Assembly (NCBI RefSeq): GCF_027531545.1
Contig: NZ_JAPZSC010000004.1
Location: forward strand, 1 to 64,000
Source of the DNA: Silanimonas sp.
Lineage (GTDB): Bacteria; Pseudomonadota; Gammaproteobacteria; Xanthomonadales; Xanthomonadaceae
Reading direction: 5' to 3'
Length of the DNA: 64,000 nucleotides
The position numbers were made by a program, and so were the translations under genes. The notes beneath the pieces were generated by a model that did not search any database, was not told the DNA's origin, and saw only the letters and a list, made by a program, of their open reading frames with translations. The stretch's first letter is position 1; the number at the start of each line of letters is the position of its first letter. Positions 45,366-56,186 of this stretch are shown here, in pieces.

Positions 45366-45467
45366 CACTGGGGTCTTTCGAAGGCGAATCCGCATTCTAG
45401 CCACGGCTTCGTGACGGCAGCGGACGGCGGCGTATGGGCGCCAACGCCGCGGTCGTCGCGCATCCGG

Positions 45468-45634
45468 CCTAGGGGCCTCGGCTGCCTCGCCCCAGTTCGA
45501 GCTGGACTGGAAACCCGGCGGTCCGGCCGAATGCGACGTCCCTGTCGCTCGGCCGGATCGCGCATCCTGCGCGACCCTCCGGGCTTGCGCCTTGACAGCG
45601 CGCTGGGGCTCGAAATCCGCCTCAGCCCCCTAGG
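45468..45634 (+). repeat. Structured palindromic intergenic element, copy A
   Basis: Bounded by CCTAGGGG (45468-45475) and CCCCTAGG (45627-45634). Inside are a GCCCCA/TGGGGC pair, the core AAACCCGGCGGTCCGGCCGA beginning at 45511, a hairpin GTCCGGCCGA/TCGGCCGGAT with inner arms GCGAC/GTCGC, then GCGC-ATCCT-GCGC and CCC-TCC-GGG hairpins. The same order of stems occurs in three other copies. Confidence 0.75.
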
Positions 45635-45730
45635 CCCGCCGCGCGCCCTGTCCTGGCTGCGGGTTAATCGAAGAGCAAGAGCGCGGCGACGGCGTCGCGT
45701 CATGCGGAGATGCGTCGAACACGCGACATG

Positions 45731-45937
45731 CGCGAGAGGACCGAGCCCGGGCATGGCGCGAGGCGACTTGAGGAGCCCCGACGCGCCAACCAGGCGCCCG
45801 CCGCGAAGCGGTGGCGCAGGGATGCGCCATCCGGCCGAGGGTCAGGATGACCCCTTCGGCCGGACAGCCGGGTTTCCAGCCAGAAAGGTGACGGGGCGGG
45901 TCCGCCGAGCACCATGACCGAGCTCGGTCCTTTCGCG
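45731..45937 (-). repeat. Structured palindromic intergenic element, copy C
   Basis: Inverted relative to copy A. Its ends are an imperfect inverted repeat of about 30 bp (CGCGAGAGGACCGAGC from 45731 against CGCGAAAGGACCGAGC read from 45937 on the other strand). Read on the minus strand, the core hairpin is GTCCGGCCGA/TCGGCCGGAT with inner arms GGGTC/GACCC, followed by GGCGC-ATCCCT-GCGCC and CCGC-TTC-GCGG hairpins. Confidence 0.75.
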
Positions 45938-45946
45938 CCTTGGCGC

Positions 45947-47254
45947 CTACCGCCCGGCTTCCCGCGGCTCCGATTCCGCCACCCCGAACAGCCGAGGCAC
46001 GGCATCGAGGTTCTCGATGTCGACCTTGTCGAGCCGGATGGTGTTCGCGAACAGCGAAAAGGCGAGGATCCCGGCCAGACCGTTGGCGCGCTTGGCCCAG
46101 GGCGGCAGGTAGTGCGGCGGAGCGATGGCCCCGCTCTCGAAGGCCGGGGCGAGGTCGAAGACGTCCTCGAGGGTCATCTTCCCGGCGAACAGGCGATGCG
46201 TGAGGGCCAGCTTCTTCTGCCGCAGGCACCAGCGGAAGAAGGTGTGCACGCGCACCAGGCCGGCGAGGTACACGCCGTCCTTGGTGAAGGCCGCGCCACC
46301 GGTCACCGGCACGCCGCGGAACACGCGGGCCGCCGAGGCGAAGCTCTCCGGTTCGCGCTGGCCGGCGTCGAGCAAGAAGCGGAACACGTCGATGAAGTCG
46401 GCGCCGCGCAGGGCCATGTCGATGGCGAGGATGCGCAGACTGATGCGCTTCATGCGCTCGATGTCGATGTGCCCGGTGATCAGCTCGGCGAAGGTCGCCA
46501 GGCCTTCCTGGGTGGCGATGATCCGCGGCGAAGTGCGCGAAAGCGAGGCGAAATGCGGCTGCTCCCGGCCGTTGAGGGCCGTCAGCGTGTGCACGAAGGC
46601 CTCGTGCTCGCGCAGCTGGTGGATGTCGTACTCGCTGAAGGCCGCCCCGGTGCGCAGGCGGATGCGCGTCGGGCCGGCCGCGGCCTTGGCGATCAAATCG
46701 GCATCCAGCTCGACGCTGACCTTGCCGGGGCCGAAGAAGCCGTCCATGTCCTGCTGCAGGCGTTCGCGGACGATGGGCGCTTCCACCGCGTCGTCGTTGG
46801 TGTCGACGGCCCGCAACTCGGCATCGAGCTCATCGGCGATGCGGATGAAGTGCATGGCCGCGTCGACCCCGGACACGGTGCCCCCCGGCAGCGCGTCGCC
46901 CGGACGGCCGAACAGGCGGATGGAATGGTCGGTGACCGCCGCGGTGCCGACGGATTCGAGCAGCAGGGCGGCGGTGTGCCAGCTGTCGGCCGTGCGGCGG
47001 ATGTAGAGCCCCAAGGGCTGGTGCGGGTCGCAGGCCTGGGCGATCGCGCGCAGCTCGGCGCGGACCTCGGCGTGGTCCTCGGGCACGTAGTCGGGCTCGG
47101 GAAGCCGGTGCACGCCGCGGCGCCAGCGGTCGAGGAACTCGCGCTGCACCCGCTGTTTCCAGCTCACCGCCTGCAACAGGCGCAGGCGGCGCGTCGCCCG
47201 CACCATGCGGGCGTCCAGTTCGGCCAGGCTCTGCAACGCGGCGCCGTCGGGCAT
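45947..47254 (-). CDS. QEGLA-motif protein (DUF1704; flavohemoglobin-modulating family)
   Basis: A 435-residue soluble protein with the family signature ATQEGLATFAEL and the preceding LNGREQPHFASL stretch. Relatives are named flavohemoglobin expression-modulating QEGLA proteins; sequence features around HExx-like histidines and QEGLA suggest a metallopeptidase-like fold, but activity is unproven. A strong AGGAGG ribosome site lies 12 nt upstream of ATG 47254. It is divergent (88 bp) from the SpoIIE phosphatase gene. No flavohemoglobin gene is nearby. Confidence 0.82.
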   Translation of the reverse strand: MPDGAALQSLAELDARMVRATRRLRLLQAVSWKQRVQREFLDRWRRGVHRLPEPDYVPEDHAEVRAELRAIAQACDPHQPLGLYIRRTADSWHTAALLLESVGTAAVTDHSIRLFGRPGDALPGGTVSGVDAAMHFIRIADELDAELRAVDTNDDAVEAPIVRERLQQDMDGFFGPGKVSVELDADLIAKAAAGPTRIRLRTGAAFSEYDIHQLREHEAFVHTLTALNGREQPHFASLSRTSPRIIATQEGLATFAELITGHIDIERMKRISLRILAIDMALRGADFIDVFRFLLDAGQREPESFASAARVFRGVPVTGGAAFTKDGVYLAGLVRVHTFFRWCLRQKKLALTHRLFAGKMTLEDVFDLAPAFESGAIAPPHYLPPWAKRANGLAGILAFSLFANTIRLDKVDIENLDAVPRLFGVAESEPREAGR

Positions 47255-55370: not shown

Positions 55371-55404
55371 TGCGCGCAAGCGCTGTCGCCGGCGCCTGCC
55401 GCAC

Positions 55405-55583
55405 GGTGGGCCAAGGGCCTGCGACTGCCTCGCCCCAAGAGGTCTTGTTCAAGAAACCCGGCGGTCCGCCCGAAGGGGGCGTCCTGCCCCTCGGGCGGAC
55501 GGCTCATCCTGAGCCGGTCCTTCGGACCTTGCGCCTGGATAACGCGCTGGGGCTCGAAACTCGCCGCAAGCCCCTGGCCCACC
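55405..55583 (+). repeat. Structured palindromic intergenic element, copy B
   Basis: Ends are a 19-bp imperfect inverted repeat (55405-55423 and 55565-55583; two mismatches by eye). Core hairpin GTCCGCCCGA/TCGGGCGGAC with inner arms GGGGC/GCCCC, then GGCTC-ATCCT-GAGCC and GGTCC-TTC-GGACC hairpins. The order matches copy A, but the stem sequences differ with pairing kept. Confidence 0.78.
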
Positions 55584-55687
55584 TTACGTTGGCGCTGCAA
55601 GCGTCCGCGCGCATCAATTGTGTCCGGCACGACATACCAGCCCAGGTCATCAGGCCTCCGAGTGCGTGTCGAGTTCGCCTTCGTCTG

Positions 55688-55799
55688 TGGTCAATTTCCA
55701 GTGCGCAAAGGTGGTCAGTTTTCGGCGAGCGCCAACACGTGTTGCCGCTCGCTGAGAACTGACCAGCAAAGCGGTCACTTGCGCATCAAGGATTGACCA
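55688..55799. repeat. Palindromic pair of IS21-like ends
   Basis: TGGTCAAT (55688-55695) and ATTGACCA (55792-55799) bound a large inverted repeat. Inner arms are 55713-55731 (GGTCAGTTTTCGGCGAGCG) and 55746-55764, matching in 17 of 19 positions. Several TGGTCAN repeats with GTGCGCAAAG-like spacers recall the multiple terminal repeats of IS21 elements. No transposase remains. I read it as two such ends joined tail to tail: a deletion remnant or a small non-autonomous element. Confidence 0.5.
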
Positions 55800-55905
55800 G
55801 CCCGATGCGCCTACGATCGGCCAACACCGCATCCCCACGCCTACGGTACCCGGCGTCGATTTCGCCCGCACCCGCTCGGTACGGCGCAACACTCTCACAG
55901 CGCCG

Positions 55906-56094
55906 CCGCAGGGTGGCCGGGGCCTGCGGCGAATTTCGAGCCCCGACGCGCGGCCGAGGCGATAGCCGCGAAGCGGTGGCGCAGGGATGCGCCATCCGGC
56001 CGAGCGACAGGATGTCGCCTTCGGCCGGACCGCCGCGTTTCTTGACCAGAAAGTGATGGGGCGAGGCAGCCGCAGGCCCCGGCCGGCCCTGCGG
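55906..56094 (-). repeat. Structured palindromic intergenic element, copy D
   Basis: Inverted relative to copy B. The ends, 55906-55930 and 56069-56094, are an inverted repeat of about 25 bp (CCGCAGGG...GGCCGGGGCCTGCGGC read from either side). On the minus strand the core hairpin has inner arms GCGAC/GTCGC, followed by GGCGC-ATCCCT-GCGCC and CCGC-TTC-GCGG hairpins, as in copy C. Confidence 0.78.
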
Positions 56095-56186
56095 TGAGCG
56101 CCCGCTGAGCGAACCCTGCGCTTCGGCACAGGCCGGGCCACGCCACTGCCGCTACGCTCGTGGGCTCGCCCCAGGGGAACCCACTC

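Follow-up and report, generated by a model that had tools for sequence, protein, structure and literature searches.

Accounts of the Csr/Rsm system usually include only a few dedicated sponge sRNAs; RsmW and the CsrB/RsmX/Y/Z sRNAs are products of dedicated genes present in few copies. In RNAs that bind CsrA/RsmA, the hairpins present CANGGANG loops, as a rule in pairs; the SELEX consensus of CsrA is RUACARGGAUGU and CsrB carries CAGGAUG repeats. TwoAYGGAY has been tabulated as probably an RNA and probably not cis-regulatory (PMC2864571). For this family, and for Bacillaceae-1 read in reverse complement, a match to a CsrA-binding motif is described and sequestration of CsrA is suggested, validation being given as ongoing (PMC4333381). 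The strand of Bacillaceae-1, a family of Bacillales and Lactobacillales, is called uncertain by its describers, the reverse strand being the one with CsrA motifs (PMC4333381). Changing the four GGA motifs of RsmU, an RsmA-binding RNA of Xanthomonas, altered its shift but did not abolish RsmA binding (PMC7694677). Among DNA repeats, REP/BIME sequences and palindromes linked to RAYT or TIRYT are reported as multicopy, often close together in opposite orientation and mostly downstream of coding regions, with single REPs of 20-40 bp carrying a GTAG or CGTC tag (PMC3733652).

The window (the whole analysed stretch of 64,000 nt from Silanimonas sp.) contains four copies, A to D, of one multi-hairpin element of ~190 nt. 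All four were confirmed, in agreement with the four-copy repeat family proposed in the first-pass annotation. The interval assigned to the family there, 55405-56094, is correct for C and D, but A and B lie 10 kb upstream, at 45.45-45.93 kb. Every hairpin arm that it quoted was found, in the order given, and its call of a structure stood; however, the strand that it read is the one with TCC loops (hereafter the TCC strand), and the GGA loops on the opposite strand were overlooked. On the GGA strand the order is variable outer stem, core stem, hairpins H3, H2 and H1, core stem and outer stem. H3 carries a GNA triloop with a C-G closing pair, and the H2 and H1 loops of the window copies read C-A(N)GGAY-G, all with a C-G closing pair; in copy D there are 22 nt from the first GGA (H2) to the second (H1). 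In the sense of the TCC strand, A and C lie on the plus strand and B and D on the minus strand, so that the four copies form two inverted pairs. The features are as follows, with scores for R2, a covariance model built from 23 hairpin trios with the window genus excluded.

45453-45643, GGA strand minus: copy A (R2 match 41.8 bits, E 8.5e-9; L033 1277-1350)
45538-45543, minus: H1 loop of copy A, AGGGAC
45564-45568, minus: H2 loop of copy A, AGGAT
45575-45583: H3 of copy A, CCC TCC GGG on plus
45644-45740, unstranded: 97-bp spacer of pair A/B, the gap between two model matches
45741-45933, GGA strand plus: copy B (R2 match 32.6 bits, E 2e-6)
45801-45811, plus: H3 of copy B, CCGC GAA GCGG
45812-45829, plus: H2 of copy B, loop AGGGAT at 45818-45823
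from 45830, plus: H1 of copy B, loop AGGAT at 45844-45848
55396-55586, GGA strand minus: copy C (R2 match 37 bits, E 1.5e-7; L026 1565-1638)
55481-55485, minus: H1 loop of copy C, AGGAC
55506-55510, minus: H2 loop of copy C, AGGAT
55516-55528: H3 of copy C, GGTCC TTC GGACC on plus
55587-55906, unstranded: 320-bp spacer of pair C/D, containing a separate 54-bp inverted repeat
55907-56098, GGA strand plus: copy D, complete including the outer stem (R2 match 35.6 bits, E 3.4e-7; L026 2065-2137)
55966-55976, plus: H3 of copy D, CCGC-GAA-GCGG, GNA triloop closed by C-G
55977-55994, plus: H2 of copy D, TGGCGC-AGGGAT-GCGCCA, GGA at 55985-55987
55995-56029, plus: H1 of copy D, TCCGGCCGA-[GCGAC-AGGAT-GTCGC]-TCGGCCGGA, GGA at 56010-56012

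The inverted repeat in the C/D spacer (55712-55765, within the stretch 55672-55805) has two 27-nt arms that are 89% complementary and TGGTCA-type ends on its flanks, and we take it to resemble the juxtaposed ends of an IS21-like element. Partial matches to it occur at five places in G007 and at none in G003 or G001.

No Rfam family reached its threshold in the window. The statement that the repeat belongs to no named family is therefore accurate at threshold, but below it RsmW, Bacillaceae-1 and TwoAYGGAY resemble the copies or their relatives. Among 4227 Rfam families, the two best for copy D were RsmW on the GGA strand (55970-56043, E 0.058 and 0.015, 24.8 bits vs a threshold of 52) and Bacillaceae-1 on the TCC strand (18.7 bits vs a threshold of 35, E 0.24), with P33 close behind (E 0.25). 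RsmW was also the sole match up to E 5 in 45400-46000, where it falls on copy B (45810-45862, E 0.057, 24.2 bits). Both B and D thus score below the gathering score of 52 that defines RsmW (RF02809). Copies A and C had no matches to clan CL00106, the Rfam clan that holds both RsmW and TwoAYGGAY. For TwoAYGGAY itself (RF01731, threshold 43 bits), nothing reached threshold in the window and nothing was found at E 0.01 in the source genome (G000), G003 or G007. Ten other loci of the wider superfamily gave sub-threshold TwoAYGGAY matches in four cases (L151, twice, L157, L075 and L068), with a best score of 40.6 bits vs the threshold of 43 and the same topology, and no match in the remaining six. 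Other hairpins of the tested loci matched microRNA families at E 0.0002-0.001, which is as good as the best TwoAYGGAY match (E 0.00064), so these sub-threshold Rfam scores are leads and not proof. Across 18 genomes, RF01731 passed its threshold in one (G126) and gave matches at E 0.01 in nine. G126 carries both above-threshold RF01731 matches (14) and R2 matches (5), at different places. R2 found nothing at two RF01731-passing loci of this genome (L162, L171), and since it misses them, TwoAYGGAY and the window element are at best sister families. Integron attC sites, HEARO/IscB omega RNA, group II introns and retrons were dropped on the absence of an Rfam match alone.

Like TwoAYGGAY, the window element has an outer stem, a core stem and two GGA-loop hairpins in the same order, and a comparison by eye with the Rfam structure line likewise places the core stem around the two GGA hairpins and inside a poorly conserved outer stem. 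Unlike TwoAYGGAY, it adds the GNA-triloop H3, has 13 copies in the source genome and forms inverted pairs. Its loops read A(G)GGAY instead of the strict AYGGAY of RF01731, keeping the GGA but without the Y at the second position, while ATGGAT and ACGGAC loops occur among relatives. The window element resembles the RsmW/TwoAYGGAY families and, by RF01731's own test, is not a member of RF01731. It shares GGA hairpins with RsmW and the CsrB/RsmX/Y/Z group but differs from these in being a dispersed repeat. As in Bacillaceae-1, it is the reverse strand that carries the CsrA motifs, copy D matching that family on the TCC strand, although far below the family's threshold. It is multicopy, arranged in close opposite-orientation pairs and located beside gene ends as are REP/BIME, but the element is multi-branched and ~190 nt long instead of a short palindrome of 20-40 bp, and no Y1 transposase was found in its carriers. 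A search of the literature by title and abstract, with subscription papers mostly outside it, found no description of this repeat. What is new is a multi-copy, inverted-pair repeat form of a GGA-hairpin RNA, whose presence differs between relatives; CsrA binding had been proposed before for TwoAYGGAY.

The first-pass annotation argued from its four copies that the structure is under selection, and covariation in larger alignments strongly supports this. Single-sequence folds covered copies A, C and D, with z-scores of -5.8, -4.8 and -7.8, respectively, against 200 dinucleotide shuffles, of which 0/200 were as good in each case. Alignment A3 comprises 19 copies, drawn from three genomes; of the 25 loci found, L010, L018, L020, L023, L024 and L025 were left out as contig ends or short matches. 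In it 92.7% of cells are paired and 33/49 pairs show double (compensatory) changes, as do 3/4 pairs of the H3 helix. The A3 covariation score is 0.464 vs 0.133 in shuffled alignments and 0.022-0.101 in slid controls, and four of five measures were reached by 0/500 shuffles, the fifth (pair types) by 3/500. Alignment A6, composed of 23 trios from other genera, hand-picked among the extracted trios, plus L045, has covariation in 15/20 pairs. In A7, with 62 distinct rows drawn from 29/30 loci of the class-wide R2 scan and 20 window-genus loci, all 20/20 pairs covary and the score is 0.793 vs 0.162 shuffled, in an alignment fitted to its model. Matched arms could also be produced without selection on structure if template switching during replication kept neutral palindromes paired, and rapid arm-matched change between orthologs is seen in copy A, where 128/165 aligned sites are the same as in the positional ortholog vs 1389/1444 (96.2%) in the flank. 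Such an origin is nevertheless very improbable in our view, as many genera share the three-hairpin order and its fixed loops, and as conservation in two orthologous copies far exceeds that of the flanking DNA: one copy shared by G000 and G007 is identical at 189/190 sites vs 91.5% and 93.9% in its flanks, and copy B shares an identical core of 106 nt with its G007 ortholog. Template switching is already strained by the cross-genus conservation of the loops. The single copy at locus c is the same at 182/188 sites between orthologs, little above its flanks.

While the stems vary, the loops are held. TCC is present in both loops of 57/57 distinct rows on the TCC strand. In A7, GGA is found in H2 of 62/62 and in H1 of 59/62 distinct matches, leaving 3/62 H1 loops without it, and the full form CA(N)GGANG (N optional) is found in 51/62 and 53/62, respectively. 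A6 has both the GGA and the full form in 22/23 H2 loops (L079 reads CGA) and in 23/23 H1 loops, and the C-G closing pair in 23/23 of each; across the family this pair hardly changes. Background hairpins of the window (stem of at least 6, loop of 5-6) contain GGA in 16/186 cases and the full CA(N)GGANG in 0/186. The A before GGA is replaced in 6/27 H2 loops of the window genus, all six from G003. The H1 and H2 loops agree with CANGGANG, the CsrA/RsmA loop consensus, and by their letters look like candidate docking sites for RsmA/CsrA recognition; one gene for CsrA is present in the genome (C63:279571, E 5e-25). On balance, we think it probable, with modest confidence, that the copies are gene-end structured RNA elements that bind RsmA through the GGA strand. 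We infer that this strand is transcribed, that RsmA binds it and that binding has a regulatory effect. The two neighboring C-A(N)GGAY-G loops, 22 nt apart in copy D, could be clamped by an RsmA/CsrA dimer, and the GNA-triloop hairpin, the core stem and the variable outer stem would hold the GGA hairpins in shape.

The location of the copies bears on their role. With a simple codon-usage scoring of ORFs, 10/10 own-genome loci adjoin at least one gene 3' end; all 10/10 lie between co-directional or convergent genes and none between divergent genes. Three predicted ORFs overrun an element when read from their first start codon (L028, L031, L034). Hairpins at gene ends might simply be transcription terminators or protectors of mRNA 3' ends in which the GGA loops are incidental, and the location at 10/10 loci and the very stable folds would both be expected of them. 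However, a role of this kind needs neither fixed loop letters nor a multi-branch core, whereas the loops and their closing pairs are the most conserved part of the element, and by eye no long T run directly follows the core in the window copies. We regard this explanation as improbable.

The copies are also arranged in a fixed way. In G000 and G007, 7/7 pairs of copies found by the covariance model R1 are ordered with the TCC strand first on plus and then on minus, an order in which the GGA strands of a pair point outward. A second repeat module with TCC/GGA loops was seen as a partner of the element (L036:1320-1440, equal to G000:C55:178584-178704). It partners four more G000 copies in the same order (C55:178584, C64:254422, C55:151623, C55:69349). 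Matches to it number 4 in G000, 5 in G007, 12 in G001 and at least 40 in G003, where, at the places compared (C40, C24, C14), the two modules follow each other alternately in tandem, with a unit length of ~470-530 bp. Elsewhere in the class both pair orders are seen. Presence also differs between genomes. An extra copy makes locus d 174 bp longer in G007, and a module of the second type makes locus e 123 bp longer in G000. At locus b, one copy agrees with its non-positional partner at 142/155 sites and with its positional partner at 133/163; for the other copy the figures are less clear, 138/175 vs 122/162 aligned sites. These values are only suggestive of copy exchange within the inverted pair.

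Such dynamics introduce the main rival to an RNA role, in which the element would be a non-autonomous mobile palindrome acting at the DNA level: a single-stranded or cruciform hairpin would be recognized in trans by a recombinase or transposase, the loops would be the recognition letters and the RNA would have no role. The fixed orientation of the inverted pairs and the presence or absence of modules at the orthologous loci d and e are in its favor. Wobble pairs also are rare, without clear strand bias: there are 72 G-T vs 87 A-C on the TCC strand of alignment A4 (57 distinct rows) and 13 G-T vs 5 A-C on the GGA strand of A7, which leans to its model. Strict Watson-Crick pairing with so few wobbles fits a DNA hairpin as well. 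GNA triloops closed by C-G (GAA, GGA, GCA) are extra-stable DNA minihairpins, and these are the loops found in H3. Against mobility of this kind, the Y1 transposase family PF01797 has no member in G000, G003, G007 or G001 and one in G064, and inspection by eye of the ORFs enclosed by five widely spaced pairs, one in each of five other genomes, revealed no transposase. A transposase recognizing the element's ends, as suggested in the first-pass annotation, is accordingly unsupported, with no Y1 in three carrier genomes and none seen in the five pair intervals. The empty and filled versions of locus d show no clear target-site duplication by eye, as might be looked for in a MITE or insertion sequence derivative; copy C had no plasmid matches; and the conserved loop agrees letter by letter with the CsrA motif. 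Taken together, we consider a purely DNA-level palindrome unlikely, though it is the rival to which we give most weight. A RAYT/REP system was rejected, given that no Y1 transposase was found in carriers and that the best model match beside the sole RAYT, in G064, is 14.5 bits. A parent element, autonomous through a gene enclosed by inverted ends, was likewise rejected, none of the ORFs of at least 80-100 aa in L146-L150 being transposase-like by eye.

If the copies are RsmA-binding RNA elements, their arrangement could have a simple consequence. They lie beside gene 3' ends and mostly form inverted pairs, with either another copy or the second GGA module, and since the GGA strands of a pair point outward, read-through from either side would carry one GGA hairpin pair. 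Many transcripts would then probably tether or titrate RsmA, either through their 3' portions or through short RNAs cleaved from these. We count in favor of RsmA binding that R2, built from other genera, recovers the window copies and that CA(N)GGANG is fixed while stems vary. On the other side we count the rare wobbles, the loop exceptions, the weak Rfam scores and two loci, C55:69064 and C55:151719, where the GGA strand of the element runs antisense to the gene on either side, although the neighboring second module points the other way in each case. The binding retained by RsmU after its GGA motifs were changed is also counted there.

The distribution of the element was followed with covariance models in this genome and its relatives, a search that the first-pass annotation had proposed, and it returned copies in the genus and related trios class-wide. 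In the source genome, 7 copies were found by DNA search and 13 by R1. Over 99 family genomes R1 gave matches in nine at E 1e-3, and the strong carriers all belong to the window genus (G000 with 13, G003 with at least 25 and G007 with 13); the other six are weak, matching mostly the three-hairpin core alone. The twelve weak matches outside the genus (L041-L046, L049-L051, L054-L056) belong to different repeats that share the H1-H2-H3 trio, and an A-rich palindrome containing CAAAGAAAAGTAACCAAA lies beside most of these twelve. With one free base, CAAAGAAAAGTAACCAAA is present in 22/99 family genomes and absent from G000, G003 and G007, and an intact trio was seen at 17 of 20 such places inspected by eye. 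Searched over 274 class genomes (source included) at E 1e-4, R2 matched 36 genomes and 34/222 genera, and in a 148-kb search it recovered A, B, C and D with E values between 8.5e-9 and 2e-6. RsmU of Xanthomonas campestris was tried as a member and rejected, comEA-family loci in three g7 genomes scoring at most 10.1 bits and being without the A-rich palindrome. At L073, L077 and L078, the other three of the 20 palindrome places inspected, one GGA hairpin is split by an insertion, itself a GC-rich hairpin, as though one palindrome had entered another.

This spread suggests a wider reading, which we offer tentatively and hold to be possible, if somewhat short of probable: through a class-wide superfamily, paired hairpins that bind CsrA/RsmA may be spreading to the 3' ends of genes as direction-independent inverted pairs, forming a copy-number-variable and perhaps transposable RsmA sponge and 3'-end control module whose loops stay fixed while its stems drift or undergo exchange. 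If a dozen or more repeats per genome each clamp RsmA, the free RsmA pool and its targets would depend in part on copy number, and the copy number of the element differs between close relatives. GC-rich gene-end repeats would then gain a role, and Rfam families of unknown function (TwoAYGGAY, Bacillaceae-1) would be tied to dispersed, possibly mobile DNA.

Some further observations concern the relatives and their palindrome. The relative L041 had no plasmid matches, as was the case for copy C, whereas 10 records match a piece of L147 in its A-rich palindrome only; of four such palindrome places that were read, one (Aeromonas L158) also has the hairpin trio, at 34 bits. ORFs running through the A-rich palindrome at L146, L147 and L150 encode KLTKRK- or KVPKRK-like peptides. 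Six ORFs that read through relatives gave no above-threshold match in Pfam or NCBIfam, and the ORFs over the palindrome are probably spurious genes over a repeat. A palindrome of the form GTnACTTTTCTTTG...CAAAGAAAAGTnAC followed by CCAAAAGAAAG was also seen at gene ends with no trio match, at L159 in Burkholderia cepacia, between aceF and lpdA, and at L160 in Pasteurella multocida, after dapF.
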